Source: Mytilus galloprovincialis
Taxonomy: Eukaryota; Mollusca; Bivalvia; Mytilida; Mytilidae
NCBI RefSeq assembly: GCF_965363235.1
Contig: NC_134846.1
Coordinates: 7,321,001 to 7,385,000, forward strand
Reading direction: 5' to 3'
Length of the DNA: 64,000 nucleotides
The position numbers and the translations under genes were made by a program. Shown in pieces: positions 1 to 58,434 of the stretch (its first letter is position 1; every line of letters starts with the position of its first letter). The notes below the pieces were generated by a model, which had not been told where the DNA came from, did no database searches, and saw nothing but the letters and a program-made list of their open reading frames with translations.

Positions 1-345
1 AAAATCTAAAATTTATAGAAATTGAAAGTTACCTTATGTTAATAGATATAAACAATTCACCAAAAGTCATTGCTTTGTGAAAGCATTTTTGAGATATTAT
101 CAGAAAATTGGAAAAAAAACCCCAATTTTATTGAATAAAAACCCATTACCCAGAAACTTAATATCTAAAATTTATAATAAAAAAACCCACCAAAAAACCA
201 AAAAGGGAGCTCACGTCAATAGATATAAACAATTTCCCAAAGTTTAATGCAAATGGTTAAAGAGTTTTTTGAGTTAATGACCGACATGTTGACAACAGTA
301 TACCATAACATGCATAATACGTTCCGTAAACGAGCGTATAAAACA
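1..345. repeat. Degenerate repeat, two diverged units
   Basis: Two related units follow each other: ATCTAAAATTTATA occurs near 4 and 162, and AATAGATATAAACAA near 41 and 218. No coding potential is seen. It looks like the worn edge of one of the tandem-core elements that fill this window; the family is not identified. Confidence 0.4.
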
Positions 346-1080
346 TATTATAATATATTGAGTAGTAATTTAAACACATTCTAGATACATAACATATATA
401 AATTAATACTAAAAACATAGTCATAAAAAATGGCCCATTTTATGCATTGAATGCATTACAAGGGATTATATCCGTAATACGAAATACTGATTTGTCAAAG
501 ACCGAATAATTTTAATATTTCATTTACTGTTATCTGTTTTTGTCCATTTTAATTCCTTGTTATCTGTTATGAGCCAAATCAATTTGCTGTTTTGCTGTTA
601 TTGGGACCCCCTTGCCCCCCCTCTTTATAGGTACCATTAGTGCCATATAAAATTTAAATTTGGTCTATATATATATTTGTTTTGCTTTGTCACGATAGTT
701 CCACCTTTTGTCCCTTTTCTTAAACCCGAATGAATCAGAGACTATGTATAGATTCTGTATAGTAACTATACAGATTAGTATTGTAGTATATAATACTTCC
801 ATGAATGAATATACGTCATAATCCAAATATAGTATATTCTGATCGGCATTGTCCAATCAAAAGTCCCAGTTGTGGCACACCGCCAAAATACTTTTCTGAT
901 GCAATACACGACGTATTACTATATGCTTGCGCTAAAAAATATAAACCATCATTAAAACACAAACTAATACCAGATTATGATATCAAATCTATCAATCTTA
1001 ATATTTTTTAAATATCTCATATCAATTTATAGAGAAACGATAAAACACTGTTATATATTTTTAACTTCATTTGTTTTGTA
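346..1080. other. Upstream flank of the ATF4 gene, no gene seen
   Basis: AT-rich DNA without a convincing gene; open frames here are short and show no conserved motif. A CCAAT element lies near 846-850, and a TATATAT run near 1052-1058 could place a transcription start around 1080-1090. That start is inferred and is not otherwise supported. Confidence 0.35.
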
Positions 1081-1217
1081 ACCGTTATGCGGAGGAAGAT
1101 AACCTTGAGAAGGAAGTTTAGTAGCGCACCTTGCCCACAATCGTCCATTTTATGATATGCCAACGTAGACAACACAGCGATAACACATTTCCGTGTGCCA
1201 ACACGACGATATTTACG

Positions 1218-1229
1218 ATGGATCTCTAG
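1218..1229 (+). promoter_or_regulatory. uORF1 of the ATF4 leader (Met-Asp-Leu-stop)
   Basis: ATG GAT CTC TAG lies in the inferred first exon, 58 nt before the second upstream ORF. In mammals ATF4 uORF1 is also three codons long and lets ribosomes resume scanning after termination. The reading is seen directly; the role is inferred from that precedent. An in-frame ATG at 1152 would lengthen this ORF to 25 codons if transcription starts early enough. Confidence 0.65.
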
Positions 1230-1287
1230 CGAGGACGTGCCCAACCACAGGAAAGCTTAGGCTTTCAGCTACACTTTATTTTTAATC

Positions 1288-1952
1288 ATGGCGTAAGTAC
1301 AATTACATATATTTGCTAACAGAACGGTTTCCTTGTTGATTTCGTAGACGCATTTTTTTTTACCGCCACGTACATTTTATATTATTATGAACAATGTGGG
1401 AAAAATATACTTACAGTTTAATACAGAAAATGTAATTTTGTATTGACACACTCGTAAAATCGAAAAAATGTCTTTGACAGAAACTAAATGATGGTATTCT
1501 GAAAAAAAGGGGGAGGGTAAATGTCGAAAAGGGGCGGGGGAGTTGGCAGATCCCTCGGACATTTAATCTACATCACTTTGTAATTGAGAATTCGTATGAT
1601 TCATTTCGGTCTTAAATTGCAATAATTTGTTTATGTTTATTGTTTTTTCAAAATTCTGACCAAATTTGGGCACACGTTTAAAAAAAAATTATTATTTAGT
1701 AAAGATTGTTGACTTGGTAGAAATGAGATTTCAAAAGAAATTTATTATTAATGTGATAATTGTTATATTTTCAGGTTACCCAACATACTTTTCTTTGTTG
1801 CCCTATCAGTGGCTTACGATTCTGCAGAAATCACAAGTTTTTCATTGTCATCATTTGAAGATAAAAATGAGTTCATTATTCCAAGAGATGGAGGAGTTTA
1901 CTCTGTTCGACGGGCTTGTCCCGTCGAGCAGCGGCTTCGGGCCGGGAGTTGA
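1288..1952 (+). promoter_or_regulatory. uORF2 of the ATF4 leader, overlapping the main start
   Basis: ATG at 1288-1290 is followed by GC and a GTAAGT donor at 1293. Joined to the acceptor at 1775 (TTTTCAG before it), the frame runs 60 codons through 1776-1949 and stops at TGA 1950-1952. It passes the main ATG (1867) in another frame and overlaps the main coding region by 86 nt. The mammalian ATF4 uORF2 is 59 codons long and overlaps by 83 nt. In mammals this ORF blocks ATF4 translation until eIF2 is phosphorylated. The match in order, size and overlap is strong; the splice junction is inferred from sequence only. Confidence 0.75.
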
Positions 1953-3508
1953 AGACCTTGACAAGTTTGATGTGGGATTTGGAATCCCTGGTGACAGTCT
2001 AGTCAAAGATGAATATGGTCCAGGAGAATTATTTGAGGATGTTTTGTCCTCTGGACCACTTGAAGGTGTGTTTAAGATTAGGATATTTGTGAAAAGTAAA
2101 ATAAGAACTCTAATAAAAAAAATCAAAACAGAAAGCATATAAAATTTAAAAAAAACATGGAATCAACAGCTGAAACACATCAAACTTCTGCACAACAAAC
2201 TGATAGTTTCAATGGATTTACATAGTTTTTAAAACAAGGACTTGACATGTAAACAAACACATATTAAAATCATAATCCATTCAAAATACTAGTTCATGTC
2301 CATAACATATTTGAAATGTAAAGTGTATAAGCATAAATGGTAAATCTTTAATTTACGATAAAAAAAAAATATGTTGCATAAAGCCAGACGGTGCGAGATG
2401 GAACATTCATACTGACACTAGGAATCAAACTTTAAAAAATAAAAGAAAAATTGTAACCTTCCTACTTTTCACTAGAATACCAAATTAACATCTAGAGACG
2501 AGAACAATTTATATAAATATATCTTTGCACACAAGTACATTTTGTAGATGTTTATGTTGTAAATTGCATCAGATAATGTACATGTATTTAAACTTTAAAT
2601 CATTTATTTTGACAGAAAATAATTGGATGGAAACAGTTGATCTCAGCTGTTTACTTGGGGACAATAATTCCCTTCTATCCGAACAAGAGACAATTCCACA
2701 TACCATCAAAAGTGGTCGACTCCTGGAAGAATTACTAACACAACCTATCAAAATAAAATCATCGCCAACTGTTCCAAAGAACACGCAATATGACGCAGTG
2801 AAAGTTATTAAAAACAATTCAGTTGAAAATGAACTGATTAACAACGCAACTGAAGTCTCGAGTCAGAAATTGGACATTAGTATAAAATCTGGCAGTATTC
2901 TTGAAGAAGCAATGGGTGAAATTGATGGTTTAGACACATTGTATTTACAACAGCAATTACAAGAGTTGTATGACTCCAGTATTTCACACTGTGACAGCTC
3001 TATAAGTGATGGTGCTACCTCAAATGAAGTTTCCTTATTGGATAGCAGCAGTTCTAGTATAATGGATGTGTCTATGAACGAATTCATTGCTTCTCCATTG
3101 TCATCGGAAGATATTGACAGTATTTTATCTAGTCCGGAACCTGCTTCACCTGCAAGTAGTATTCAAGAAGATCCGGATTATGTCCCTTACATATCTGACA
3201 GCAGCACGAACAAAAAATCTAAAAAGAGTCCAAAAGAGGGCAAAAGTAAACCCAAGCCCTATGACAAACCTGTTGAAAAACTAGACAAAAAAGAGCGAAA
3301 AAGAATTCAAAACAGGAATGCTGCCATACGATATCGCGAGAAAAAGCGTCAAGAGCGTGGAACAATTCACACTGATGAAGATGTACTCAGTGATAAAAAT
3401 AAAGAACTGAAAACTAAAGTGGAACAGTTGGTCAATGAAATCAGTTATATGAAAAATTTACTTACCGAAGTTTGTCAAGCAAGGGGGTTAAAAATTCAAT
3501 TTAAATAA
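1867..3508 (+). CDS. ATF4: ATF4-like bZIP transcription factor
   Basis: Two coding exons, 1867-2065 and 2616-3508, join in phase 1 (donor GTGTGT at 2066, acceptor TTGACAG before 2616) to give 363 aa. The C-terminus is diagnostic: KPYD-x-P-x-EKLDKK near residue 280 leads into a basic region (about 290-313) containing QNRNAAIRYREKKRQE. A zipper follows with heptad positions L324, L331, L338, M345 and V352. The KPYD and EKLDKK blocks and the basic region match vertebrate ATF4. The middle is Ser/Asp-rich, as expected for a phosphorylated activation and degradation region, but I see no clear copy of the vertebrate DSGxxxS degron. Nuclear regulator of the amino-acid and unfolded-protein stress responses. 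ATG 1867 is chosen because the overlapping uORF leads up to it. ATF5 is the main alternative; the upstream ORFs do not separate the two. Confidence 0.92.
2563..2571 (+). promoter_or_regulatory. CARE/AARE-like nonamer in ATF4 intron
   Basis: ATTGCATCA, the amino-acid response element known from the CHOP promoter, lies 44 bp before the last coding exon. A 9-mer is expected by chance about once in a window of this size, so this is only a candidate autoregulatory site. Confidence 0.2.
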
Positions 3509-3814
3509 AAATTAAGGGAGGAATGTAATTTATTTTCATTTGTAAATACTCATTGACAGGAATGTCACCAGGTTGTACATTTTGTTTCATGATCATGATT
3601 AAAATTATTTCTGCTGTGAGTATGCTTTTCTTAGTATTTTGTCCCACGAGTGAACAAAACATGTCCTTAAAGATGAATTGATATATGATGACCAGTTATA
3701 TAATAAGTACATTTGTAATGGATAGAGGCAGCAATGTTATCCCAACAATACAATTTAAATCAAAAGATACCTTGGGAGGTCAACACAATGTCTTCGTACA
3801 GTATGTCTATAGAT
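3509..3814. other. Probable ATF4 3' UTR and flank
   Basis: Non-coding. An AATAAA overlaps the stop codon (3504-3509) and is too close to act for this gene; an ATTAAA near 3598 is a possible polyadenylation signal. Nothing else recognisable. Confidence 0.35.
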
Positions 3815-4100
3815 ATAGAAAGATGTGGTATGAATGCCAATGAGACAACTCTCCATCCAAGTTGCAATTTGTAAAAGTAATCTATTATAGTTCAAATTAC
3901 AGTCTTCAACACGGAGCCTTGGCTCACACTCAACAGCCAAAAATGACTAGTATAAAACAAATCAAATGGGAAAACTAACAGTCTAATCTAGATAAAAAAA
4001 CGACAAATGAGAAACACCTGTATGAACCACATCAACAAACTAATTAACATCAGATTCCTGACTACGGACAGGTGCAAACAAACTCGGCAGGTTAAATGTT
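3815..4100 (+). repeat. Mussel-type dispersed repeat (GATGTGGTATGA family)
   Basis: Begins AAAGATGTGGTATGAATGCC and continues with CAATGAGACAACTCTCC. The same sequence recurs near 20797, 26978, 38585, 57290 and 57715, and inverted near 29525 and 41288. I recognise it as very common in Mytilus DNA. Non-coding; class (SINE-like or other) not settled. Confidence 0.7.
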
Positions 4101-5465
4101 TTTAATAGGTATCCACCTTTACTATGATAGTATGTCATTGTGATCAGAAAATTATCAAAGCTGATCTATATTAAAAATAGAGACATACACTAGTCAATTT
4201 AAGAATCAAAGAAGCAAAGCTACATGCACATTTAAAAATGCAATTAAAACAAAAATTATTTGTGGATAACCATTTGGAGGCAATGTGTTAATAAAGACCA
4301 CCAGTCACAGAGTAGGATGAATGATATTTAGTAGGGGAAAAAAAACGAATATGCACACGAAACTTATTTTGTCTTCATCAATGGTAAATAAATGAAACCA
4401 CTATCATCTGTTGAAGCATGGGAAGATAACACAACAAAAATTGCAGGATTTCTTCAATGAATCAAACAGAAACCCTGCAATTTTACACTCAAATACTGAC
4501 CCCTGAAGTGAACATAGTAAATAATCAAAAAGCTTAGTTTTCATTGAGCGGATAGATTTTAAATGGAATTTTTGTTTAAAATTTTCCAAGCACATTCATA
4601 CAGACGAGTATTTATTCCAGCTCAAGATGCATGTATGAAGGGGACATTAAAGCTCGCAAGTTGAAGATAAACTGGCAAGGTCATGGCTAAAAAAAGATCA
4701 AATTAAAACAACAGTATTCAAATTAAAACTCATAATAGAAACTAAAGACTGAGCAACACAAACCCATCACTGTAGTTCGCAATTTGGTCAGAATTTTGAA
4801 AAATTACAAGTGCTACACTTACAATCAACATAATTTAAATGAAAAACCAACACCCAATTATTACAAACAAAAAACCAGAAAAGACTGACAGCAATCTTTT
4901 CTGTGATTTTTTAGATATAGCTATTCCTAATGAAAGTTCAAACACAGTTTTTTTTTCATTATATTTGCCTATATACATGATATATGGTCTTTGTGTCTAG
5001 AGAGAAAATAATTTGATCATCTTGTTTTCTTGAAATTCAAACATGGCAATTGCAAGTAGAAAAAATTCAGAAGAGACCTTATATATACGGCAGCCATGTT
5101 CAAAAGATATAACATAATCAGGCCACAATTAAAAATATTTTGGTTTGCCCAAACCCTACCCAAAGGTTGAGACAGTGGGTAGGTAGGTAGGCATTTTCTT
5201 TTCTTTTTTCCAAAAAGAGAAATTGAAGTATCAAGTGTTTATAAGTCTTCATGCCTATCTGATTAAAAAAAACTTCTTCAAATAAGGACAATAAAAGACC
5301 TGTTGACTGACCTACAAGACCTAAGGGGGCCCCTGCTCCAGTCATGCTTCAGTGATTCCCTTTATAATCAATTAAATTTTCCCCACCCAGACCCCCCTGC
5401 ATCTGCCTATTCTGTTATATACTTATATGTGTAATTTGCAATAAAATTCCTCCCCAAAATACATT
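4101..5465. other. No recognised gene or element
   Basis: AT-rich spacer between the convergent ATF4 and ADH5 loci. Several short frames are open but none shows a conserved motif. Confidence 0.4.
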
Positions 5466-5910
5466 TTTTATACGACCCCAAATTTTTTTGGCGTCGTATA
5501 ATGATATCATGTTGCCATCTGAAGACATTTAGTTTCCAGACAAAAACTTTAGTTTAAGTGAATGGAGGTTCAATTCCACTAAAGGAAGGTTGCAATTGAT
5601 TTTGGGAGTTATGGTCCCAATATGTTAGGAGTAAGGGGCCCAACATAAGCATTTTGTAGTTTTCAAACAATAACTTTAAGTTGAAGTGTATGAATCTCTT
5701 TGAAATAATACCATAAGTTTCCATACCATAAAGGTATGGTAAGTATTGTTTGGGGTGGTGGGGTGGGATTATGGCTCAAAATGTTTAGGAATTGGGGGCA
5801 AAAAAAGGGGAAAAACTAGGTTTTTCTGGTAAATGGTCAATTAAGACAATTGAAAAGCAGTGTAAGGGTCAATAAGGGAGGTAACTCAAAAACATTAACA
5901 TACAAGTTGG
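5466..5910 (-). repeat. Degenerate copy of the TATACGACC element
   Basis: Starts TATACGACCCCAAATTTTT and then GGCGTCGTATAATG, followed by worn units with the phrase TTTTGGGAGTTATGGTCCCAA, also found near 12.7-13.2 kb and 61.5 kb. The end cannot be fixed; similarity fades after about 5900. Confidence 0.5.
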
Positions 5911-6413
5911 GTATGTTTCGCATTTGCCTCCTTTACACTACTTGTGAATTATGTATAATTCCAAATTTTTGAAAAGTTTTAAGAAATCTTTCATATGGAT
6001 GGCAGTTCGCAGGTATAGAGAAGAGGGCATCACAGGTTATTACCCACTTCAGAATCAGTAGTATCAAAATGGTTAAAGTCATTTTAGATGTTCCATGTTT
6101 TCCATGCTAGTCCTAATGAGTACATTTAAGGTCAAAGGGAAATAACTCAAAAATTTTATATGTAAAAGTAGACAATTTTTTGGGTACTTAATTACATCAG
6201 TTTCATCTGCTTTCAGGAGTTTCTGTTGCTAGCAGTGTACATATTTCATCTACAAAGAAAACTAGCCTGTCAATGCCAAGGTTGTGAGTTATAAACCCTC
6301 TCATGGCAGGTGTGTTTGACTCTCCTACAACAAAAACTGTCATCTGTGCCTAGACTGTGATAGACAGCCAAGTATGTTGAAAAGGACATTAAACACAACA
6401 TTTTTGCAAAGGT

Positions 6414-6419
6414 TTTAAT
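6414..6419 (-). terminator. Possible ADH5 polyadenylation signal (ATTAAA)
   Basis: TTTAAT on the + strand reads ATTAAA in the direction of ADH5, about 125 nt after its stop codon. No AATAAA was noticed closer to the stop. Confidence 0.3.
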
Positions 6420-6543
6420 GTGTATATGTTCTTTACATTCATCTTGTGTAAAATGGTCTCTCTAACAAAGTAGTATAGCACTAGAATTAGTTAAATGTTC
6501 TGGAATGAATTACTTCCGTCTTTAAGGCATTTCCTTGTCGTTC

Positions 6544-27606
<21,063 letters not shown>

Positions 27607-34436: not shown

Positions 34437-36476
34437 TTATGACAACATCCGCTTTCTTCGTGTATTGCCGTACCCCGGAAACAACCGACACATGACTTTA
34501 TCGCAATGTGCCACACGCTGGTGTATTAATATAGTGCCATGTTTCAAGTTAATTAACATGTCATTAAATGGTACGCGGCATCGCAGATGAACCGTTTGAA
34601 GTCGGGTCGTAGTAGTTCCTGTCAATATAATACTTCCATGTATCGATTTAGAAGATCCAACAAGCCACAGATATCCACATTCATCTACTATCGTGTCAGT
34701 GGTATTAGAAATACCTTCATTTTCACTCAACAAATTTTGCTGAAAAACGCCATTTTCTGATAACATATAGACAAAACCATTTTTGCCATCTGCCAGAAAA
34801 ACATTTCCATAATTGTCCGTAGCGATAGCTTTAAATTCCGCTCCTGATTTATTAAAAGAATTAGGAACTTTAAAGTGTTCATCAGTAAAAAGAACGACAT
34901 CCTCGCAGAATGAAATTACAAAATTCAAGTTTTTAGTTTTCTTCACAGCTACAGCTTTGACTTGGTAACTGTACCTCTTTTTGTGCATTTTTAAAAAAAA
35001 ATCTTCAATCTCAAATTTATTTTGGACATTTCTAGGGTCTGACAACTCATAAAATCTTGCCTCTTTATCATTATACACAAGTAAGTTGCCATTGCGAACA
35101 ACACAACAGAACAATTCATTTGTAAATGGATGTTCGTAATATTGGTTATGCTTGGTGTTTTCTCTCTTTAAACATCCAGATTTCCTTATAATACGTTTTA
35201 CGTTCGACATATTAGATTTATCATTTCTTTTCTCTGATATACCTTTGCAGGTAAGCATTCTAATACCGGTATCGGTTAACACCCAGGCATTGTCATTTTC
35301 TGCTGGAACAATGTCTTTGATATCGGTCTCAAGGACGAACTCAGATAATTTCTCTGCTTTATGCACTGTTAATTGATCTAGTTCAGGCAACGGTAACTGT
35401 GGGTACGTTTGCTTTGTTTCATTTTTCTTTGCTCTAGCAGTAAACTTCCCAAATATATTTTCTATAACATCTTTAGCGACATCTTTAATTTCAAAATTCA
35501 AATTGTGAATAGAAGGAAAGATGCTAACAGATTTACACAATTCGTTATCAAGACGTTTCCCAATGTGCGAAAACTCTTCACGGAAGTGTGTATATGGCAA
35601 TTTATCAATAAAATCCTCTGTTATCGTGGCAAGTCCCGTTAATGACATTATTGCAGTTTCGATTTCATTCAGGTATTTGTCAAGTTCGTTTATGTCTTTC
35701 ATCTTTATATCATCGATAGTATATAAGTTTTAATTTGTTAGTTCATCGACAGTACTACAAAACCGATCTTTCAAATATTTGGCATGTTCTTTTACATCTC
35801 GTTTCATCATACCACAGTGCTTGTCATAATTATTTTCCTTTAATCTTACCATATCAGCAGTATTTTGTAGAAACGAAATTCTGGCTTTGAAGCTAGCGAT
35901 TCTGACTAACAAATTTTCCTTTTTGCTTTGAAGTAACAAATATAAGTTTTCAACTTGATGGCGCCGATGATATCCTTCTGAACACTCGATGCAAAATAAA
36001 CAATTACATGGTTTACAGAAAAAGATAAATTCCTTGCCATGGTCTTTGCATTTTTGTTTATCATTCGCACCAGACTGATCTTCTTCCTCTGATTTATTTT
36101 TTTGCAGAGGTTCAATTGTATGATTCTTCGATGCTTTCAATTTTCCATGGTAATTTTGACAATTACTGCACATATTGATTTTGCATTCCAAACAAGTCGC
36201 CATTGCAATATTTTGTTCATAACATAACTCGCATGAATCCATAATTGCATTTGGTTCCGTCGCATAATCTAATTTATGAGGATAAGGTTTGATACCACTA
36301 ACTCCATTATCCGGTAAAGATATATTTGTTTTACATAACGGACAAACTATTTTACTATCTCTCACATGTAGTTTCTGAAGGCATGGTGAGCAGAAAGTAT
36401 GATAACAGTCTAAAAGTTTAGGTTCTATAAAACAAGACTGACATATTCCGGACTTTGAATTACAACCTTCTGCCAT
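34437..36476 (-). pseudogene. TRIM-like RING/B-box gene, damaged paralogue
   Basis: The start MAEGC at 36476 matches the intact paralogue at 45399. A RING (residues 5-49) is followed by two B-boxes (about 82-120 and 145-178), a coiled coil and a C-terminal propeller-like region resembling the intact gene. Three defects: the first RING Cys is Ser9; an in-frame TAA at 35730-35732 falls in the coiled coil where the paralogue has sense codons; and after LWLVGSSKSI (near 34640) the paralogous ending is replaced by about 68 unrelated codons of repeat-like origin, ending at 34437. It could give a 248-aa RING/B-box protein without propeller. The family comprises ubiquitin E3 ligases, often linked to innate immunity and greatly expanded in bivalves. 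Confidence 0.75.
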
Positions 36477-36560
36477 TCTTGATATTGTGCGGTTCGTTGG
36501 ACAGACCAGGAAGCTATTTAAGCTGATGCTTTGAATAGAAATCAATGCATAGCAACATCC

Positions 36561-36783
36561 ACGCATATTAATTATAAATGTTGAATACGTAATATAACTA
36601 TATATTTACAAAAAATATAGAAATAAAATGCTTAAAACGATAATTATATTACGTATTCAACATGTATAATTAATATGCATGGCTTAGCAACAGCCATGGA
36701 TATTAATTATAAATGTTGAATACGTAATATAATTATCGTTTTAAGCATTTTATTTCTATTTGTTTTGTAAATATATAGTTAAA
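36561..36783. repeat. Large inverted repeat at the 5' side of the damaged TRIM locus
   Basis: Arms of about 89 bp (36595-36683 and 36693-36783) flank a 9-nt centre TTAGCAACA. A third, direct copy of ATTATAAATGTTGAATACG sits just before (36569-36594). The left side reaches the presumed promoter of the TRIM-like locus. Could form a hairpin or cruciform. Confidence 0.8.
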
Positions 36784-38991: not shown

Positions 38992-41952
38992 GGTCAACGG
39001 AAAAAAAGTCACAGGAAAAAAAGTCTCAAGAAAAAAGTCACAGGAAAAAAAGTCACAATTAATAAAATTATTTGAAAGAAGTATATAAAATGTTTTTAAG
39101 AAGTATGTTGGAATGCACATGACAAAAGTGATTTTGTATATCAGCTGTATGAAATAAATAATTAAAAAAATTGCAGTTTTGTTAAATAAAAATAATACTT
39201 CTTGTAAAAGTGTATCAGATCAATTATTTTTAAATAAAAGCTTTTAAAATTTATATAGGTAAAGCGCACATCGATATTAACAGATTTCGTTTTATTTATG
39301 GGTTAATAAAATAAAAAAATATATTCTTTTCATCATTTAAAAAAAAAAATAAATACACTAAAAAAAATTATAATAGTAAAAGTGTAATAATTTATGTTCT
39401 CTTTTTCAAAACAAACTCTTAAACAAACAGGATAAGCCATTTGTTTCCTTTTCATTCATGATAAGCCCTAGTTGTTTTTCATGGGTAGGGCTTCCTTCCA
39501 AAAGAGGAAGTGAAAGGTCTACAAAAAAGGGAAAGGTGCCACAAGAAGCCACTAATTAATCTCAACAGTCACTGTCAATAAATGTTGTAATTACATAATT
39601 ATTGTTAATGGGGATGCTTTGTTTGTTTAACATGTAATTGAAGGATTCTCATGATATTGGCAAAAACACAGCTATAGAAAAACAAAAATCACAATAACAT
39701 GTGGTCAAACCATATCATAGACTTTCTAACTTTGACTCAAATTAAAGAAAATGTATGACTTCATTTACTTTTCTATATAAGAAAAAAATAATTTCAAGTG
39801 TTATTAAATCAAATATGGAAGTCATCAAGAGCAACAAAGGCGGGTCCAAACTTTGCTACCAGGGGTACATGTACACCAAGCATACTACCAGAAAGACAGT
39901 ACAGTGGTGGAAATGTGTGAAGCGATCCAGCACTGCATGTAAAGGGTCCATTACAACTTCTCTGCAGAATGAAATCCAACTCCTGGCCAGCCACACAACC
40001 ATGATCCAAGTGATATTAGCATAAAGTACACTAAGTCCAGGTACGCAATGAAAGAACAGGCTGCTCCCACCAGAGACAAACCAAGCCAGATCTTCGCCCA
40101 GGTCGTTTCAACATGTGAAGATGATGTGCAAGCAATGATGCCCAGAGAAGAGAATTGTAAACGCACCATGCGCTACCAGCGTCCAGCATCATCTGTTCCC
40201 CAGAGCTTTGCAGATGTCACACTGCCAACAGAATTCACCATTACAACCAAAAACCAACAGTTCCTACTGTATGACAATGGACAGAATGCTGAGAACAGAA
40301 TGTTGGTCTTTTGTAGTTCTGACAGTTTAAGACGTCTAGCTGAAGCCCATACCCTTTTTATGGATGGTACTTTCTCTGTAGCTCCACATCCTTTTAAACA
40401 GCTGTACACCATCCGAGTACCTTTTAAAGATGTTACAGTCACCACAGTGTATGCTTTCTTGCCGAACAAGAATCAAGATACATACAGAGAGTTATTTCAG
40501 TCATTGGTCGACAAATGCCAAGCCAGCCACCTACCGTTAAATGTTCAGACTGTGGTAACAGACTTCGAAGATGGCGTTCTACGTGCAGTGTCGGCAGTAT
40601 TTGACCGCCATATCAACAACCAGGGATGTTTCTATCATCTTACCCAAGCAACTTGGAGAAAGATACAGAGCCTTGGTTTGGTTCCCCACTACAAGATGAG
40701 CGATGACTTCCGCCTGTTCTGTGGTATGATCAACTTAGTAGGTTATGCCCACCCATCAATATGGAGAGTAGTAGAATGGTGCCAGAAAGAAGAAGCTACA
40801 GTGAGAACCTTGATACAACAAGACGCTGTAGGCACCCCGCCAGTTAAACGGGTCCAACAACGTTATGTCCAACTTCAACTAAGACTTCAAAACTTGTGCA
40901 GAGACTTGACATCAGGCAACAAGACCATTGCAGAATTTCTCAGGGGTGTTGGTTGGAACATAAGACTTAACCATTAGTTGTCGTCTTTGCCATATATCAA
41001 GTGAACTTTAAGTAAAACTATGTGCATCACTTGTTCATTATCTGTTGTTCATTGATAAAGACATTTATTTGTGCTTGATTATTTATTATGTTGCTGTTAT
41101 TGACTTATATTATTATGATGTATACATTAAATCTACATTACTACGTCTTCAATTCGTTTTGCTTAATTTATTTCTTTAACACAATATCAACAGGTCATAC
41201 ATAAAAAAAAAGATATGAAACAAAAAGAACTTCAACATGTATCAGTACACGATCTTGTACAGGTGACCTATATTTGTTAATTTCTTGGTCATTTTGGTCT
41301 CTTGTGGACAGTTGGGTACCACATCTTCTCTTTTAATATATCAATACACGAGCTTGTACAGGTTTTCTTTTGCTTTGCGATTTTAAGTGTAATTTCCAAA
41401 GCAAAAGAGCATAAGACTTGTAGAAAAATACGTTTAGCTGTCTATAACTAGCATCATTCAAGAAAGATATGAAACAAAACTTATTACAACAAAACATTGT
41501 ATCAGTTCACGAGCTTGTACCGGTTTTCTTTTGCTTTTGTAGAAACATATGCTAAGCTGTCTAATTTGCTTCTAATGTAAAAACACATGAAACAAAAATA
41601 ATTACAACAAAACATGTATCAGTAACATTACAAAAAAAATCCTTTGAATGACATTGAAGACCTGTTGGTGAACGTCTGCTGTTGTCTGTTCTATGGTCGG
41701 GTTGTTGTCTCTTTGGCACATTCCCTATTTACATTCTAAATTTTATAATAAAACAAAGGATATGGGGTACAAAAAACACAAAACCATACTTGCACATGAA
41801 CAGCAGAAAAAAAACCACACACAGACAAAAGTCATTACCAATATATAAGTGCAGATCATATGACAGTTTTCATACAAAATATAAATTGTGACTTTTTTTC
41901 CTGTGACTTTTTTTCCGTGACTTTTTTTCCTGTGACTTTTTTTCCTACATTC
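38992..41952 (+). mobile_element. Mutator-like (MULE) DNA transposon, 2.96 kb
   Basis: Inverted ends of about 60 bp are built from repeated GGAAAAAAAGTCACA (left 38998-39060, right 41885-41946). AACTCATC flanks both sides (38984-38991, 41953-41960), fitting the 8-9 bp duplications of MULEs. The insertion splits a mussel repeat that resumes in register. It carries one FLYWCH-MULE transposase gene and smaller inserted repeats (about 41280-41340 and 41655-41770). Confidence 0.85.
39812..40977 (+). pseudogene. FLYWCH/MULE transposase, damaged
   Basis: A FLYWCH zinc finger (39812-40000; GYMYTKHTTRKTVQWWKC, then ACKGSITT) is followed by a MULE transposase domain with FMDGTF (first catalytic Asp), VVTDFEDG (second) and GCFYHLTQATW. 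Two defects. The frame shifts near 40000-40005, just at the second finger His. The text jumps in frame from RLFCGMI to NLVGYAHPSIW (about 40731), where relatives have roughly 90 residues including the RTNN-x-ESW block, so the third catalytic acidic region is missing. It should be unable to cut DNA. The finger and second half together match bivalve FLYWCH-MULE proteins. Confidence 0.85.
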
Positions 41953-43500: not shown

Positions 43501-45399
43501 TTATTGATACGAAAACACTTTAATACATTTCGATGCTTCAACAATCCACAAATAGCCACATTCATCTACTATCATGTTGGTTGGTGCATATACACCGTAG
43601 CTTTTGTTCAACAACGTTTGTTGAATAACGCCATTTTCAGATAATAAATATATGATATCACTGAAGTAGTCTGCCACGAAAACATTTCCATAATTATCTG
43701 TGGCTATTGCTTTTAATTGCGCATAGAGCTTTTGAAAAGACCCGACAACTATGAAAGAGTTATCAGTGAAAACAACGATATCTTTGCAGAACGATATGAC
43801 GAAATTCAAATTTTTCGATTGCTTCATAATTATATGCTCGCCAGTAAATGCGATATCTTGGGGTAATTTATTTTCTGTATCTTGAATTTTAAATCTTTCC
43901 TGAACCTGAAAGCATTCCAGCCCTGGTTCGAGTAACCCGTAAAACAATTTATCAGATGGATTGTACACTATCAACTTATTATTTCTAAGTACGCAACAAT
44001 GCAATCCATTTTTAAACTGAACTTTGAAGCACATATAATATTTTTCTTCTTTTTTTATTACAACATTATTTCCATGACACAACAATATTCTAGAAGCAGA
44101 CTTCCGCACAAAACGTTTAATTTCAGGCTGGACTTCGTAACTGTTTCCTTTCTTACCTTCACTGCTATACATACACGATAAGTTTGGAGTTAATATCCAT
44201 GCATTGTTCTTATCAGCTGGCACAATGTCGAGGACATTATTAACTACAAATTCGGCCACTTTTTCGGCTTTATGCGATGGAACTAGACAAAGTTCAGGTA
44301 CCGGTAAATGTGGGTAAATTGGTTTTAATTCTTTCTCGTTTTCACTTGCAGTTACCTTTCCAAATATTTTTTCTATAACTGCTTCACTGACAGCATCCCA
44401 TTCATGACCCAAATCGTGCATGGAAGGAAATATATTTACAGACTTACACAAGATGCTATCAAGACGTTTTCCAATTACAGGGAACTCTTCTAGGAAGTTT
44501 TTATCTGATGATTGATTAATAAAATTTTCTGTTGTCATAATAAGTCCTGATAACGACATTTTTTCTGAGTAAATTTGCTTCTTGTATTTATCAAGTTCTA
44601 TCATATCTTTCTTTTTTATATCGTCAATAATGTCTAAATTTCTATTTGCAAGTTTATCAACAGTTCTACAAAACATATCTTTCAAATTTGTTGCATGTAC
44701 TTTAACGTCTTGTTTCAATACGAGACAATATTTATCATAGTTATTTTCTTTCAGTTCAACCATTTCAGCAGTATTTTGCAGAAACGAAATTCTGGATTTG
44801 AAGCTGGCGATTCTGACTAACAACATTTCCTTTTTAGTTTGAAGTAACACTGATAAGTTTTTAACTTTATGGCAGGAATGAAATTCTTCAGAACAATCTA
44901 TACACAATAAAGTATTACACGGTCTACAGAATAAGGTAAGTTCCTTGCAATGGTCTTTACATTTTGTCTTGACAGTTGCTTCAGCATGTTCAGTTTGATC
45001 TAATTTCTCTGATTCAATAATTTTCAACGGCTGAATCACATGATTCTTTGATGTTTTCAATTTTCCATGATAATCGCGACATTTGCTGCATAAATTAGTT
45101 TTGCAGTCCAAACATTTTGACACCGCAATATTTTGATCATCACATAAGTCGCATGCATCCATAACCTCATTGCTTACTTTCACATATTCTAATTTATATG
45201 GATAAGGTTTTAGACCACTTACTCCTTCGACTGGTAATGACATAGATGTCGTACATAAAGGACAGCTTATCTTATTGTCGTTAATATCCAGTTTCTGAAG
45301 ACATGGCAAGCAGAAAGTATGATAACAATCTAAAAGTTTAGGTTCTGTGAAAACAAAAGACAAACATATTCCACATTTCCAATCACACCCCTCCGCCAT
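43501..45399 (-). CDS. TRIM-like E3 ubiquitin ligase (RING, two B-boxes, coiled coil, propeller)
   Basis: Single-exon, 632 aa. The RING uses C9, C12, C25, H27, C30, C33, C46 and C49 (CGIC, CYHTFC, CPLC). B-box 1 spans about 83-120 (CDLC to NH) and B-box 2 about 147-177 (CKDHC to HSCH). A helical, Lys/Glu-rich coiled coil covers about 185-330. The C-terminal 240 residues hold repeats such as IATDNYGNVFVADYFSDIIY and IVDECGYLWIVEASKCI, typical of NHL/SMP-like propellers of the TRIM2/3/56-like bivalve expansion. Likely a cytosolic E3 ligase; substrate unknown. The start is the first ATG before the RING and is shared with the damaged paralogue 7 kb downstream on the same strand, so the pair arose by duplication. 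All key zinc ligands are present. Confidence 0.93.
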   Translation of the reverse strand: MAEGCDWKCGICLSFVFTEPKLLDCYHTFCLPCLQKLDINDNKISCPLCTTSMSLPVEGVSGLKPYPYKLEYVKVSNEVMDACDLCDDQNIAVSKCLDCKTNLCSKCRDYHGKLKTSKNHVIQPLKIIESEKLDQTEHAEATVKTKCKDHCKELTLFCRPCNTLLCIDCSEEFHSCHKVKNLSVLLQTKKEMLLVRIASFKSRISFLQNTAEMVELKENNYDKYCLVLKQDVKVHATNLKDMFCRTVDKLANRNLDIIDDIKKKDMIELDKYKKQIYSEKMSLSGLIMTTENFINQSSDKNFLEEFPVIGKRLDSILCKSVNIFPSMHDLGHEWDAVSEAVIEKIFGKVTASENEKELKPIYPHLPVPELCLVPSHKAEKVAEFVVNNVLDIVPADKNNAWILTPNLSCMYSSEGKKGNSYEVQPEIKRFVRKSASRILLCHGNNVVIKKEEKYYMCFKVQFKNGLHCCVLRNNKLIVYNPSDKLFYGLLEPGLECFQVQERFKIQDTENKLPQDIAFTGEHIIMKQSKNLNFVISFCKDIVVFTDNSFIVVGSFQKLYAQLKAIATDNYGNVFVADYFSDIIYLLSENGVIQQTLLNKSYGVYAPTNMIVDECGYLWIVEASKCIKVFSYQ

Positions 45400-45984
45400 G
45401 TTCGATATTGTAAAATACGTCCGACAAGGAAGTATAAGGGCTTACGTCATCATATGTTTGAAATTCAATGCCAATAACAACCATTTGAATTTGAAGTGGA
45501 ACGTTGAAAACGTGATACAAGTATCGTCTTAATATATAATCAATAATAAATAAATCAATGTTGAAGTATTTTATTGCTGTTTGTTTAGTAAAATTTATTA
45601 GATCTCCTACTCGTACTTATTTTTAAAAACTTTGTCTTATCAGTACATTTGATAAAGTTTTGAGCGCAAACCACACCTGCACAGTTTTTGATATTATGTA
45701 TTGATATTACTGCCCTAAATTAAAATAAAAGATAGATTGATGACTTGTCAATACGACAACTACATGTATCATGTAGTTTGAAGTCAGGAACCTGTATTTC
45801 ATTGGGCTTCTAATATATTTGTTTATTTCTATTTATAGTGTTGTTTCATAAATTTAACCCTTAGTTGTCTTGTTTGAATGGTTTTACATCATTTTTGTCA
45901 TGTCTTGACATTTTATAGTTAACTTCACAATATGGGTTTTGTTTATTGTCGAAGGTCCTACATTGACTTTTAGACATTGCAGTC
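45400..45984. other. 5' flank of the intact TRIM-like gene
   Basis: GATATTGT just before the start codon is shared with the damaged copy, supporting a shared leader. No promoter element is evident and no other gene is seen. Confidence 0.35.
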
Positions 45985-48969: not shown

Positions 48970-51900
48970 TCATAAAATCGAGCACACCGATGATAATTTA
49001 TGATTCGAGTTGTCAACAGCTTTTCTGGTGAGTAATTGATAATGTTTACTTTTGCCCGGTTTACGTCTTCCTTTCTTTTTGCTTTGCGGAGCTCTCATTG
49101 GTGACACCTGAAGTGAAAATATTAATAATTTTGATCTATTATATTAACCTGTCCGTATTCAGAAATTAATTCTTCTAATTTAAACACATTAAATGGAGAG
49201 CGCTACATACTTCATATTTGAATATTTCAAATATAAAAACGCTAAAATTCCTCCAACAATTCAATGAAAGTAGGTGCACAAATTCAACATATTTTTCGAT
49301 ATTTTTGTGAATTTTCAGGGATCAGGGTTGAACATTGCACTAGATGTTCATAACACAAAACAAGTCCCCGCTATCATAACTTTTTGATGAAAAAAACAAG
49401 CGGGTGTGTCTTATTGCTGTGTGGCGGCCGTAGAAATTTTCTCAGTGATGGAGTTGTACTCTTTTTTTGTTTTCTTTTAAAGCTATAGTGTGTGTGTTCT
49501 TAAACTAATTCCTCTTATATGTGCCACATCATACTCTCAATTTTAGGCAAGTTTGTGTACAAAACTTTCATTAAGACGCGGGTATTTTTTATCCCGTTCC
49601 TTTCCAAACATTTATTAATGGTGAAATCAGTACACCTTTATATTATCTTATAGACACACCAGACCGTACTGGTTACCTGGACTCTGGATACACAAATCAA
49701 GGTACTTCATATAGGAGAATTTTAGAAACCATTTTCATATGATTATTTTTGTACAGTTTAAAAGTGTCAGTCAAAATGTGTTATTACTGGTCCTTAAAAT
49801 TTCATTTTTTACTTCAAATACATATAAAAAAGGGACTACTTTGTTTTGAATATGTGCTTCTGTCTAGTATCTTTAATTTGTTTGTTAACAGATTTAAAGT
49901 CTCTCAAAATCATTTTGCAAATAAGTCCGCTAAAACCGGTGATTATGGTCCGTATTAAACTTGCAGTTAGGTGTTTATTTGCTCTGTGTTGATGGTCTCG
50001 CTGTGACTTGAGATGACGAACAGCAACAAAAGAGCTGTAACTTTTTAAATTTTATGATTTTTGTGTATTTATTGATTTTTTCTCATGGATAGATCCCCCT
50101 TTATATTTTGTATTTTTTTTGTATAATATTCCCAAGTCTAAAGAATTAAAAAGAAATTGTCGATTAATTTTTATAACAGAAGGTGCACAACTTCAACATA
50201 AGTAGACTTCTGTGAGATCTGTGTTGAAAAATGTAGGAGTGGTTGATTTCACAAATTAGATATCCACTTTTAACCACCCCTAAACCCCCTCTCATGTTTG
50301 CTAACTGGATAGCATAGTAATACTAAGACAGTTTTAGATTAGGTTTACAGTACAGTATATTGAGTGAGATTTAAGTGATAATGTGCAAGACATTAACAAC
50401 ACAAGTCATGTATGAAGTTACCGTCCTTATGCTGAAGTCAGTAATATAAACAGACAATAAAACAGCCGTGAAATGGATAAGCAATAAATTTAAATTTGAT
50501 ACATTTCCGCAAAAACTACAAAAAGATTGTAACATGCTGGTATTATCGCTAATTACCTGAAATTACTTAAGGGGGATTGGGACTATTCGACTGCGCATAA
50601 TTTCATGCATGAATTACCATGCACACGAAAAGTTTGTGTCGTAAATTCACTATTATGTTTTTAATATTTTGATTGAATGAAAACGTTAAATAATGGTATT
50701 TTTGTCAATTAAAAAATATTATCGTTATCATGTGTATCTGCAAAAGGCTCAAAATGACATTTCACCCAATTTCACCATTTCCCCTCCAAATTTTGGGTTT
50801 TAATGCAAAATATTTTTTTCTTTATCGGTGTACAGTTTTCGCAGACAGTTTTCTTGATATTCCGATAAAAATATGTCAACACCTCTATTTTCCCTATTAC
50901 TTCATAAAAAATGGTCCCTTTTACATACCTGTTTAAAAGTAATATTTTGAGCTTAAATAATCCAGGACCCCCTGTTTTTTTCGACCAATTTGATTCCCTC
51001 ACTGCAAAGATTAAAATAACAAAATGCTATACAATTTGAATATTAGCACTTTTTATAAATACATAAGAGCTTACCTTAACAATTTCTGGTACACTGGACA
51101 CAGAGTCGATTCTTTTCCTTGCAGGAAGTCGTTGTACAGGATATTCTAATGCAAGTCGATGCTGTCTGGTCTTAACATTGATAGGTAATACTTTTGTTAT
51201 TTCTGGAATACGGAATAATATTTAGAAAACATTCATTTTCGGGGAACAAAACAGTCAAAAAAGATATACAAAGAGAGGCAACCAGCAATAGTCAGAAGCG
51301 TGTTGAAACGAAAATAATTTCAATATCATCAAAATTAGTGGTTGGAAAAAGTATTCCTGTATTTCAATAGAGATACATAGTCATATAATAAATAATCACA
51401 AGACAAACTTACATATTGTTCACAGTTTTGTTATTGTAACATAGAGAGCAGTTGCTTCATAGTTATTACCCAATCGTTTGGAGTGTTTGAGCTTGGATTT
51501 TGCCAATTTTCGTTTTGAATTTTCCTTCAAGTTCTGTATTTCTATTATTTTTCTTTTTATATGAAAAAAAATATCATTTGCAATTAAAAAACTATAAGAA
51601 TAAGAAAATCATAAATAAATTATTATAAACAAGTTGGAACAATACAAAATTATGGATTCATTTATTTTTCGAGGGTACCAATAAGGATTGAAAAAAAGTG
51701 TATTTTCGTGGACATTTAAAAGCGAGATATTTCCAAAGTCTAAATATATGAATAGAAAATTTGAAATTCGTTGAACATTTATATTCGAAGTTTACATGCA
51801 TCCACAACATTCTTGCAATCTAGTATTATACCACAATCTTAAAAGACAAAACTAGAATAAATGTATATGCCTATACATGTTTTCCTTTTCTGCCAAGTTG

Positions 51901-54900
51901 AAAATGAGTCAAATCGTTCGTTTTGTCTATAAATACATTCTTTCTTACCTGGATCCCATGGTGGATTACCTTCCACTGAAGGACTATTATGTAGACAAAG
52001 TAATGGCGAGTATTTGTTCTTCTCTAACTGTACTACCATTCGGGAGGCGTCTTCAGACATTGAGAAGTTGATAACTGGGCAGTGCATATCAATCATAGTT
52101 ATCTGTTGTCCATATTGTAAACTCCACAATCTGATTGTGCTGTCCATAGAGGCTGAAACACAATAAACGAACATCATATAAGGTGCTCCGGAAAGGATAG
52201 AAGATTGTAAATAATGTACTCAAACACTTGTTTTCCTGCGAGTAGTCAGCCGCGAGAAAAAAAACCCACTTATCATTTTTTTTAAAACACAAGTTGAAAC
52301 ATCTTTTCTATTTCACAATTGGTTACTTTAATTAAGTATAATAATACAGATAATACTACTTTACTTTTTTCTTTGTCTAATACAACAGTGTTTGTCAAAA
52401 ATCAACAATCGAAATTTGTTTTATCTAATTTATTTTGCCAATATAACTGTTTAAGGTATGTCATACAAATTCAAGTTAACTTTCAGTAAATGTAAACATG
52501 GTAAATGTGACTGTCGACAGTACATAAGTTTTACCATGACCAATTTGATGTGTCTCAACATGCTAGCTACATATCATTCGCAATACTACATCTTTAGATT
52601 ACAGTATAGTCGTTTGATCTGTTATTTTACCGATCTGTTCTATTTCAGATTGTGATGTTTAGTCTGTGGCATGGATGGTGATGCATACATAACAGGAGAC
52701 GATTGCCCTATAGATGCATCTGGTATCTGATATTTGAACATAAACTTGTAAATAAACTCATCATAGATACCAGAATTGAAATATTTTATTTACGCCAGAC
52801 GAACGTTTCGTTTACAAAAGACTCATCAGTGACGATCGAAAATGTTAAAAAACCAATAAAGTACGAAGTTGAAGAGCAATGAGGATCAAACATAAAAGTT
52901 TTTCCAGATACAGCTAAGTTATCTATTCCTGAAACTACTGTATCAGAAATTTCTGCCCATTCCCAACACTTATTGTTTTTCAATTCATCCTAACCTGAAA
53001 TAATCAATTTTCCTTTATTTGTCAATTTGACAACTGTGATACCATTGGTATGGCCGATAAGTTGATATTTAACGACCCCAGTGTGGACGCACCATGCAGT
53101 TAGTTGTCCATTCTTGCAACCGGAAACAACATGTTCGTTATCATCACCAATGGCAACAGTACAAACGATAACAGTGTGCTCGACTAAAACCTGTAATTGT
53201 ACACATATGTATAAGTAATGTTAATGAATCGCTTAAACTAGGAATGGAATTAAAACAAATAATTAGAATTGTTTTATCAATGGCTTATCACATGTATAAC
53301 AAACTCAAAGGTAAACAGTTCTCTGGTGAACACAATTAGGTCTGTTAGGGGCTAAACCTGCAACAAGAGTTACTTGTTTGGTTAGAAGAACAAGTTGTTT
53401 ACATATATAACAGATACTTCAATATCATTTAAACCTTGCATAGGTTGTTTGTTTAAACTAATTCTTATAGATCTCATAGTAATCATAAGTAGGGTGCTTG
53501 TATATTTTCAATTTTTCAGCATATCAACTATAGATTGAAGTGTTTCTATTAGTTTCTATTAGTTTAATATATACCAATGAAAGTGAATGTTCTGTTTGTG
53601 ATACTCAATAACGAGACATTAAAAACATATTGAATCTCAGTTTGATTGAATTTTAAGATTATGTGATAATTAACATATACATCTACACTCATCACAATAA
53701 AGACATCTATTAAAATATGATAATGTAAGTTATAACATGATTCGCAATATCATGTCGATTTTTTCACATACATACAATTGTGAACTTTTAGCGCAATATT
53801 GTAGTTGCTGAATTATACAAAAGATGGACGCAACTCGTTTTGATTCAAAAGCAAAAAAAGCTTATATATTACAGCAGATGACAATATGAGAAAAACTGTA
53901 GGTGTGTAAATACAAATCATTTTAGAGGGGCGTGTCCTATAACTGTAAAACCAAATTAATTCTGAAATTATTTTTTGAAAGTCTATGACAATATAAGAAG
54001 CCTATCTGTACCAGTAACCAGTAAACATTTCCATTGCAGAATAACATAGGATTGAACATACCTGAATGAGTTTTCCATTAAACATTTCCCATATTTTGAG
54101 AGTTTTGTCGGCTGACCCTGTTACCATATACTTATCATCAACGGAACAGGCAAGACAAGTAACATGTTCAGCATGGTTAATGTATGCAACTATTGACTCA
54201 TCTTCCAACGCTACAACCTTCACACTGTAAAGGTTTTTATTACTTTATATTTTAGTTTGTTATAATAAACATTTCAATTATTAAAGTTATAAGATACTCA
54301 GAATTCTTAAATCTGATTAAAGCATTTCTTACAGGACTATTAAAAGAAAGGCGATTGATTTTTCTGGCGCACTCCATACGAGTACATATTTGGATATGCA
54401 TTTTTGAAATATAAGTACTACTAAGAAGTAGCGTTGTCGGAAAATACGCGATGTACAAACATTACGCTATGGTAACGTTGTTACCAGAACGCTATACTGT
54501 GTGACGTTATATTATATGCATTAGCTATCACGACGATTAAACGTATAGAAAACACAACGCATGATTTATTAAGATTCTTCAACATTTAATGGTGCCGTAA
54601 CCTTTGGATATATATGGATTCAAAGCTGAAGTCAGTTCGTGCTGGATACAAAGGAGCCGTCACGAAGCTACTGGTGAAATTCGACGAGTTAAAGTCAAAA
54701 ACAGACACAGAAGTTGTCGAAGTGAAAGCCCTTGATGATGCCGTCACGCAGAAACAGAAAACATTGATTGACCTGAATAACAGACTTTTGGAACAAACAT
54801 CAGAGGAATATCTGGAGCAGGACTCAGATGGGTATCTGTACGAACTTGATTGCAAAATTAGACGAATTCGGAAATTTATTAAGTCCTTTGAAACAAAGAC

Positions 54901-57900
54901 TATAATTTCGCATGATAATGTTTGTCCTTCAACGAGCAGACTTAACCCAGACGCATATAATTTCACACCCGAAGCTAGAGTTGATATGAACACATGTGCA
55001 ATAGATTCTATGAACCAACAGTATTCAATTCACGCCCATGCAGTGCATACCCGTCCGTCAGAGAATGTCATGTTTCAAGTCCCGTCAGAACCGATATCTT
55101 CAAGATCTAATTACCATAGGCTTCCAAAGTTAGACGTACCCTATTTTAATTGAGATATTCTCAAGTGGCAGACATTTTGGGATTGTTTCGAGTCATCTAT
55201 ATACTACAACGTCACATTAACGCCAATCCAAAAGTTCAACTATCTTAAAGCCCAGCTAGAGGGAAGCGCCGCGCAAACAGTAGAGGGATTCGCTTTGACT
55301 AATGGTAACTACGAAACCGCAGTCAACCTTCTCAGAGAGCGGTTCGGACAACCTAGCAAACTGATAATGCTTACATGAAAGCACTCATGAACTTACCCAC
55401 ACCGACAAATGATGCATTTAGCTTGAGGTCTTACGGAGACAAACTTGAATCATATGTGCGAGGATTAGAGTCACTTGGTCAAACACCAGAGATGTATGGA
55501 TCGCTTTTGGTACCTGTAGTATTGGACAAGTTACCAATTGACATAAGAAAGAATATTGCACGAGAACACGGGAGAGATAATTTGATATAAGATAATCTAC
55601 GCAGATCTATAAATAACGAGATTGAAATACTTGAGGCAGGACAGGGAGTCATGGAATCGGACAGATTTTACGCTCTGCATTTTTTATGGGTACGTATTCA
55701 CATTCATACAAGAGCAAATTCACAGACACACATAAGAAGAAAAATACACGTACATGTATTTTCTGTTCAGGTGAGCACCATCCGACGGAGTGCTCTGAAG
55801 TTACAGACGCAAACGCTAGAAATCATATTGTAAAACAGAAACAGTTATGCTTTAACTGTTTAGGGTCACACCGAGTGGCCACATGTAAGTCTACAAAACG
55901 ATGCAAAAAATGTGACGGAATGCATCATACAAGCATATGTAAAGGTAAAGAGGTAATTCCAGGTACGACACCGGAGCCTACAATACAACAGTCAGCAATA
56001 AACGAATTTGAAACACCAAACGAGACTAGAGTAATGTATTCATCACAACATAGTCACGACATTCTCCTGAAAACAGCAACTGCACCAGTTACATATAACA
56101 ACCAAGAAGTAGAATGTAACATGTTATTTAACGAGGGAGCACAGCGTTCTTTCATAACTCAGAATTTGGCTGATAAACTAGAAATTAAACCAACAGAAAA
56201 TGTCAGCATTCAACTGTCTGCGTTCGGAGATTTATCTCAGAAAGTTCGTAACTTAGACACTGCAACAATACAACTACAGACCGACACAGGAGAAAAGGTG
56301 CATATTAACACACTTATTGTTCCGGAAACTGTCGTCCCAATTAAGAACAATATTTCCCAGACTACAAGGAGCTTGCCACACTTAAGAGAACTTAAACTTG
56401 CACATTCTGTGCAAAGTACAGAACGTTTTGAAATCAACTTACTCATAGGCGCCGACCGCTATTTGGACATTATCGAGGACGAAGTAATTATAGGAAACGG
56501 ACCCACCGCTATTCAGTCAACGATCGGATATCTATTATCAGGACCGATCAATAGAAACATCAATCAGCCGTCCACAGTTCTTGTAAACGTCATTGCAGAC
56601 AAGAACACAACTATTGATAACGAGAAAGGCAATTCCACAGAAGGGTTGCCTTGGAAACATGACCATCCAGATGCTATACCTTCAGTTATGACCGTTGCCA
56701 AAAAAAGACCAGAAAACACATCGCAATGGCTCATACAAAGCAGATCGTACATGAACCAATTTGAGGAAACACTCTAAGGAAGTTACTTGCTACCTAGACC
56801 ACCCGAACAAACACACCCTCAACTGTTGGAGTCAACAAGCCACATAGATACAGGACAGATACTTATAACGCGTAAAGAAATTAACCGCTTAGTGAAGTTA
56901 CCGTGTGTGCCAGAAGAAACATCCATGAATGGACTAAAAGATAAACTGTAATTGTGTTCAGTCAAGGTTAAGGAACTAGATTATTTTATTTGAGATGGAC
57001 ATTATTTTAAATTTATTTATCTATATTGTGAATTTACATTTTTTTTTAAATTTTCGTTACATATTTCACTTTTGTCGGCCCCCAGAATGTCGGAAAATAC
57101 GCGAAGCACAAACATTACGCTATGGTAACGTTGTTACCATAACGATATACTGTGTGACGTTATATTATATGCATTAGCTATCACGACGATTAAACGTATA
57201 GAAAACACAACGCATGATTTATTAAGATTCTGCAACAAGCGTAACGTGTTTTGGATACTATATACAAAGTATGGAAAAGAAATAAGATTGATTATGAGTG
57301 TCAACGAGACAACTCTCCATTCAAATCACAACGTTTTTAAAAGTAAACCTTTAAAGGACAAAATACGGCCTTCAACACGGAGTCATAACTAAAACCGAAC
57401 AGCAAGCTTTAAAGGGCCCAAAAATGACTAGACTAGATGTGAAACAATTCATTCACAAAAACCATCGCTGTATGTTAAATAACAATCATATGTCAATATT
57501 TACTAACATTATTAGGATATCAATTAGTACAACTATTATATCTCACCTAACTTTGACTTCATGATATAACAATTTGATAACTCTTTCATGAATGATTATT
57601 TAGTTTTGTTGAAAATTTACGTACGATATCTACAAGTGGTGACAGAAGAATAACTTATCTAACTTTTACCACCACATCAAATTGTTTGGACCAAATTTAT
57701 AAGTAAATATATATGATAATATGTGGTATGATTGCAATGAGAGAACACTCAAAAAGAAACCAAATGACACATTAATTGACAACTATCGGTCTCCATACTG
57801 TCTTAAATAATTAGCAAAGCTCATATTACCGCATAGTAAGCGTGTATATATTTGTTAGTTATTTGTTTTCTAACTTAAATAATTTATTCGTTTATTTGTT

Positions 57901-58103: not shown

Positions 58104-58192
58104 CTGTAGATTAAAACACAGAAAGGACTTTAAAGTGTCCAATATTATGGTACATTTAGAAACATTTACAACGTCTAGTTTATTGATTGAGC

Positions 58193-58216
58193 GTGTTTGT
58201 GTGTGTGTGTGTGTGC
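58193..58216. repeat. (GT)n microsatellite
   Basis: Short GTGTGTGT run, about 11 units with one interruption. Confidence 0.8.
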
Positions 58217-58434
58217 TCTTATCAATGGAAAGTTTGCAATAACTCCCTGAACGGAGATTTATTTTTTAAGGTTTTGAATAAACACATTTACTAATTGTGA
58301 ATTAAATTTGATTTTCAGTGAAATACACGTCAAATTTTGTGATATTTTGTGCCTTTTGAAAAGCAATTTTACAAAATTTCACCATGTTCATACAGCAATT
58401 GAAAAATAATTATATATTAGAACATGTAACGTTA

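Follow-up and report, generated by a model that had tools for sequence, protein, structure and literature searches.

Paired upstream open reading frames and a predicted hairpin in the ATF4 leader of the mussel Mytilus galloprovincialis

RESULTS

The ATF4 gene and its surroundings

The stretch of DNA that we analyzed, referred to below as the window, comprises 64 kb of the genome of Mytilus galloprovincialis. On its plus strand lies a gene whose coding sequence is divided between positions 1867-2065, beginning with an AUG at 1867-1869, and positions 2616-3508, which carry a bZIP domain. Once 2066-2615 is removed as a second intron, the frame specifies 363 amino acids. Among solved structures, the best match to this product was ATF-4 (1ci6, E 4e-7), followed by an ATF-4 fusion (E 0.023) and then by others with E values of at least 0.065. 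Judged from solved structures only, the bZIP domain is closest to ATF4 among bZIP families, and the product also contains a bZIP_1 domain (E 4.5e-10). Based on the structure match together with the domain, we therefore took the gene to be ATF4.

Eight of the 14 bZIP loci listed for the mussel's own genome were compared. One of them (L003) is the ATF4 gene of the window itself, and among the other seven only L006 matched the ATF4 bZIP region, weakly (31% over 64 residues, E 6e-4). No Rfam family was found at gathering scores within positions 1-8000, none of 35 pattern matches in viral contigs was confirmed as a relative, and NCBIfam returned two sub-threshold TonB matches and nothing else. A sigma-70 promoter scan was discarded as inapplicable to an animal gene.

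The remainder of the window holds genes and repeats of other kinds. Two TRIM-like genes on the minus strand (43501-45441 and 34437-36605) both have RING and B-box domains according to Pfam; the latter is interrupted by one in-frame stop, which divides it into a part with the RING and B-box (35730-36605) and a part with no Pfam match (34437-35729). On the plus strand, the open frame at 39973-40977 encodes a MULE transposase domain (PF10551, E 3e-10), and retrotransposon-like frames at 54590-56777, presumably of the BEL/Pao type, include a DUF1758 putative peptidase in 55635-56777. The open frame at 16198-16899 on the minus strand is made of tandem, near-identical units of about 55 residues, has two frames open simultaneously, and gave a borderline match to DUF806; it is probably a tandem repeat, not a gene. 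Finally, two pieces on the minus strand (51839-52219 and 57903-58265) resemble exons of WD40/beta-propeller proteins, with every match falling below curated cut-offs.

Layout of the ATF4 leader

Two upstream open reading frames (uORFs) precede the ATF4 start codon on the plus strand. The first, uORF1, occupies 1218-1229 and reads ATG GAT CTC TAG (MDL). This three-codon frame starts in a strong context (A at -3, G at +4), and we predict that it is a reinitiation-permissive element. The second, uORF2, begins 58 nt after uORF1 with ATGGC at 1288-1292, again in a strong context (A at -3, G at +4), has a 5' splice site at the end of this first part, and would continue at 1775-1952. Once spliced, it would be 183 nt long, with 60 codons and a TGA at 1950-1952. 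Since the ATF4 AUG is at 1867 and uORF2 ends at 1952, the two frames overlap by 86 nt, with uORF2 running past the ATF4 start in a different frame. The ATF4 AUG itself has A at both -3 and +4, and upstream of it the spliced ATF4 frame is blocked by a TAA at 1283-1285. Given the predicted junction between 1292 and 1775, uORF2 is the last AUG before ATF4, and its AUG lies 97 nt from that of ATF4. The initial annotation had placed a 3-codon uORF at 1218-1229 and a 60-codon uORF2 at 1288-1292 and 1775-1952 with an 86-nt overrun; both sets of coordinates were exact to the base, the splice junction being a prediction.

Intron 1 is predicted from sequence only, at 1293-1774 on the plus strand (GTAAGT ... 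TTTTCAG). Its donor reads ATGGC/GTAAGT and its acceptor TATATTTTCAG/G before 1775, from which we infer the 1292/1775 splice junction. Intron 1 of human ATF4 likewise splits uORF2 after ATGGC. In the portions of the literature returned by our searches, and among the matches listed, we found no mention of the human intron splitting uORF2.

The 5' end of the transcript can be placed provisionally from base composition. The GC content rises from 0.173 (1000-1080) to 0.465 (1080-1150), and this step at about 1080 suggests that transcription starts nearby. If so, AUGs at 1087, 1152, and 1157, which were absent from the initial annotation, would also precede uORF1. The AUG at 1152 shares its frame and stop with uORF1 and could open a longer uORF (1152-1229, plus strand, 25 codons) in a weak context (T at -3, A at +4), usable only when transcription starts upstream of 1152. 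The AUG at 1157 could open an extra three-codon uORF (MPT; 1157-1168, plus strand) with G at -3 and C at +4. A survey of ATF4 leaders describes a similar weak-context uORF upstream of uORF1 (PMC4176352).

The layout compared with chance

For four assumed positions of the 5' end, we generated 4000 dinucleotide shuffles of the leader each. A uORF overlapping ATF4 out of frame arose by itself in 1290-1701 of the 4000 shuffles, so that an overlap of some length, which the initial annotation had stressed, is by itself ordinary. The full layout, that is, a short uORF followed by a last uORF that overlaps ATF4, was found in 121-173 of 4000 shuffles; 2-4 of 4000 also had an AUG-to-AUG spacing of 97 ± 3 nt. 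When both uORFs were required to have A or G at -3 together with G at +4, the layout was absent from all 4000 shuffles at each 5' end. Because the full layout is rare among shuffles, the arrangement of uORFs is unlikely to have come about by chance.

The open frame of uORF2 was rejected as strong evidence when taken alone. In addition to the frequency of overlapping uORFs among shuffles, the ATF4 frame is also open across the same stretch of exon 2, and two rounds of synonymous recoding left the uORF2 frame intact in 400 of 5523 cases and 400 of 4879 cases.

A stable predicted hairpin within the overlap

Absent from the initial annotation is a predicted perfect hairpin of 12 bp midway through the overlap of uORF2 and ATF4 (1903-1931, plus strand; -20.5 kcal/mol), which reads CUGUUCGACGGG-CUUGU-CCCGUCGAGCAG and covers ATF4 codons 13-22. 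Its 5-nt loop (1915-1919) corresponds to ATF4 nt +48 to +52, in codons 17-18. The base of the hairpin lies 133 nt after the uORF2 AUG, and a second in-frame ATF4 AUG (Met8, GAGATGG; 1888-1890, plus strand) lies 15 nt 5' of it. When we folded all 30-nt windows on both strands of the 64 kb, this was the strongest fold on either strand and the only place on the plus strand at or below -18 kcal/mol. The minus strand reached that value at the palindrome of the hairpin itself (-18.1) and at one unrelated place (17010, -18.2). From 1170 onward, no other fold in the spliced mRNA was better than -10.0 kcal/mol. With the leader as context, 11 of the 12 stem pairs had a probability of at least 0.85. The overlap as a whole was also more stable than its dinucleotide shuffles (z -2.75), with 3 of 200 folding equally well. 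A weak second hairpin is predicted immediately downstream (1932-1951, plus strand; about -7.6 kcal/mol alone). Having a pairing probability of at most 0.04 in the leader context, it was rejected, and it is probably of no importance.

The hairpin lies in a GC-rich stretch (68% in the 50 nt of 1903-1952 versus 32.5% in the window) that is also coding sequence. We recoded the first 30 ATF4 codons synonymously, drawing on the codon pool of the gene, on uniform synonyms, or on a local permutation of codons. None of 1000 recodings from the gene codon pool and none of 1000 with uniform synonyms reached -20 kcal/mol, and the same was true of both sets of 400 recodings in which uORF2 was kept open. Under the strictest control, local permutation, 7 of 1000 reached -20 and 160 of 1000 reached -15. 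Codon choice does not readily account for the hairpin, a stable fold in the middle of the overlap for which the least favorable control gave 7 in 1000.

Comparison with human and other animal ATF4 leaders

Mammalian ATF4 is reportedly controlled by a paired-uORF switch based on delayed reinitiation, as described by Harding in 2000 and by Vattem and Wek in 2004. In human, as in the mussel, uORF1 is three codons long, and uORF2 is of nearly the same length in the two species, with 59 codons in human and 60 here (PMC11832788). The out-of-frame overlap is likewise similar, at 83 nt in human (PMC5666893) and 86 nt in the mussel. From these human figures, the distance between the uORF2 and ATF4 AUGs follows as 180 - 83 = 97 nt, the 180 nt being 59 codons with their stop; it is thus identical in both species.

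Part of the comparison relies on human ATF4 letters that we take to be correct, which give the same 59 codons, 97 nt, and 83 nt and place a loop of 5 nt at +45 to +49. On those letters, the human loop comes one codon before that of the mussel hairpin, which is at +48 to +52. The N termini of human and mussel ATF4 showed no similarity, 263 of 500 shuffles scoring as well. We also rejected a conserved uORF2 peptide, since 14 of 500 shuffles matched the score against the human peptide and the alignment was out of register. The gap between the two uORFs, about 87 nt in mammals, is shorter in the mussel, at 58 nt, and the mussel leader would differ further in its extra upstream AUGs should transcription start near 1080.

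Midway through the human overlap lies a stem-loop, SL3, that is described as highly conserved among vertebrates (Smirnova 2024, PMC11058473). In that study, the loop exposes an AUG (AUG3) at codon 17, opening SL3 raised ATF4, and a longer distance of SL3 from the start of either uORF2 or ATF4 removed its negative effect; SL3 is said to work with a CUG 20 nt upstream, and its authors propose a queue of ribosomes reaching back to the uORF2 AUG (PMC11058473). The mussel hairpin is like SL3 in being stable, in lying in the middle of the overlap with a loop that falls on or beside ATF4 codon 17, and in having a start codon a short distance upstream. It differs in its 12 uninterrupted pairs of other sequence (relative to the human stem as we take it to be), in its upstream codon, an AUG (Met8) at 15 nt versus a CUG at 20 nt, and in having no AUG in its loop. 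The printed stability of human SL3 is -15.4 kcal/mol versus -20.5 here, values that come from different programs. We looked for a CUG about 20 nt upstream and found no CTG among the ATF4-frame codons of 1867-1902; a CTG at 1903 sits within the hairpin stem. Mussel uORF2 also lacks an RRACH motif comparable to the one at the human m6A site.

Outside the vertebrates, paired ATF4 uORFs have been described in the mollusc Aplysia as well as in Hydra and insects, and the survey regards them as conserved throughout the metazoa apart from nematodes (Hiraishi 2014, PMC4176352). The leaders of Aplysia, Hydra, and arthropods resemble that of the mussel in their short uORF1 and long uORF2, and the leaders of the survey resemble it in the weak-context AUG upstream of uORF1. 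Insect uORF2 is described as containing a second in-frame AUG, which is lacking inside uORF2 here. In Drosophila the overlap with ATF4 is given as 125 nt (PMC4433282). The words Crassostrea, oyster, and Mytilus are all absent from the main text of the survey, and among the matches listed from the open-licence literature we found no bivalve ATF4 uORF and no SL3-like hairpin outside vertebrates.

DISCUSSION

Our results indicate that the leader of a real mussel ATF4 gene has the anatomy of a delayed-reinitiation switch, as the initial annotation had proposed. The identity of the gene (the 1ci6 match), the open reading frames, and their start contexts all support this part of the proposal. Given this anatomy and how widely the arrangement has been published among animals, we consider it probable that the leader operates as the standard metazoan uORF switch of ATF4 in the integrated stress response. 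Since paired uORFs have been published across the metazoa, the central claim was already in print in its general form, and their presence in insects, Hydra, and Aplysia argues against calling the switch specifically vertebrate-style. The further suggestion that the length of uORF2 is itself under constraint is doubtful, because the published Drosophila overlap of 125 nt implies that this length is not fixed in animals. What is new here is the strong hairpin in the overlap; the uORF pair adds one more genome to a published arrangement.

In such a switch, ribosomes would translate the three codons of uORF1 and then scan on. With abundant eIF2 ternary complex, they would reinitiate at uORF2, 58 nt downstream, and read past the ATF4 AUG out of frame. 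With eIF2 phosphorylated, some ribosomes would cross the uORF2 start unprimed and initiate at ATF4. The hairpin may well add to this scheme in the manner described for human SL3. If a ribosome stalls at the base of the hairpin, 133 nt past the uORF2 AUG, a queue may extend back onto the uORF2 start, and under stress the stalled ribosome may favor initiation at Met8, the AUG 15 nt before the hairpin. The roles of reinitiation, queuing, and Met8 are what we infer from the layout. Based on the position and stability of the hairpin and on the recoding tests, we give an even chance to its being an SL3-type barrier outside the vertebrates. The mussel and human hairpins share their geometry and differ in sequence. 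Because the N-terminal peptides are dissimilar, any homology between them would be of position alone, and the resemblance could reflect such positional homology, convergence, or coincidence.

There are other ways in which the same sequence may be read. The switch could be real and the hairpin incidental, a GC-rich coding patch that is kept for the protein or by drift and that has no role in translation. We regard this as a substantial possibility, somewhat short of even. It draws on the 68% GC stretch and on the local permutations that proved as stable (7 of 1000, with 160 of 1000 reaching -15); the difference between the mussel N-terminal peptide and the human one, as we take it to be, leaves room for a lineage-specific protein reason, and our view is from one species only. 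Yet the hairpin has twice the stability of the next best local fold in the spliced mRNA (counted from 1170), is unmatched in strength on the plus strand of the 64 kb, was not equaled by any of 2000 unrestricted synonymous recodings, and has a loop within one codon of that of human SL3.

Less weight attaches to explanations in which the uORFs are used differently. That uORF2 alone acts as a constitutive or leaky-scanning brake, with uORF1 not serving as the reinitiation element, seems unlikely. It would follow if transcription started downstream of uORF1 or if upstream AUGs altered the use of uORF1, and it draws on the extra AUGs at 1152 (in the uORF1 frame) and 1157, on the short gap of 58 nt, and on the published observation that stress still induces a reporter carrying only uORF2 in human cells (PMC11058473). 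Against this, uORF1 has a strong context and a three-codon length that the survey describes as permissive, the GC step at about 1080 suggests that uORF1 lies within the exon, and the surveyed leaders also include a weak-context uORF before uORF1 (PMC4176352). Very improbable, in our estimation, are alternative transcripts that would avoid the spliced uORF2 by starting in intron 1 or by retaining it. The ATF4 frame is open from an ATG at 1723 (1723-2142, plus strand) through exon 2, such that a transcript starting within the intron could give a longer ATF4 without uORF2, and retention of the intron would turn uORF2 into ATG GCG TAA. However, the retained intron carries eleven AUGs (1387-1751), of which only that at 1723 opens into ATF4, and by eye both splice sites, at 1293 and 1774, look good.

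Returning to the reading of the hairpin as a barrier, we offer an extension that is tentative and on balance doubtful. The barrier and its 133-nt spacing may be an ancient bilaterian feature, in which selection would act on the length of the ribosome queue that reaches from the hairpin back to the uORF2 AUG and not on the peptide or the length of uORF2, and in which a start codon before the hairpin, an AUG in the mussel and a CUG in human, would catch stalled ribosomes. More generally, should the mussel hairpin prove to be a non-vertebrate counterpart of SL3 that matches it in position and differs from it in sequence, the ATF4 switch would have two ancient layers, and the question of uORF2 length would become one of a spacing rule that can be measured across molluscs.
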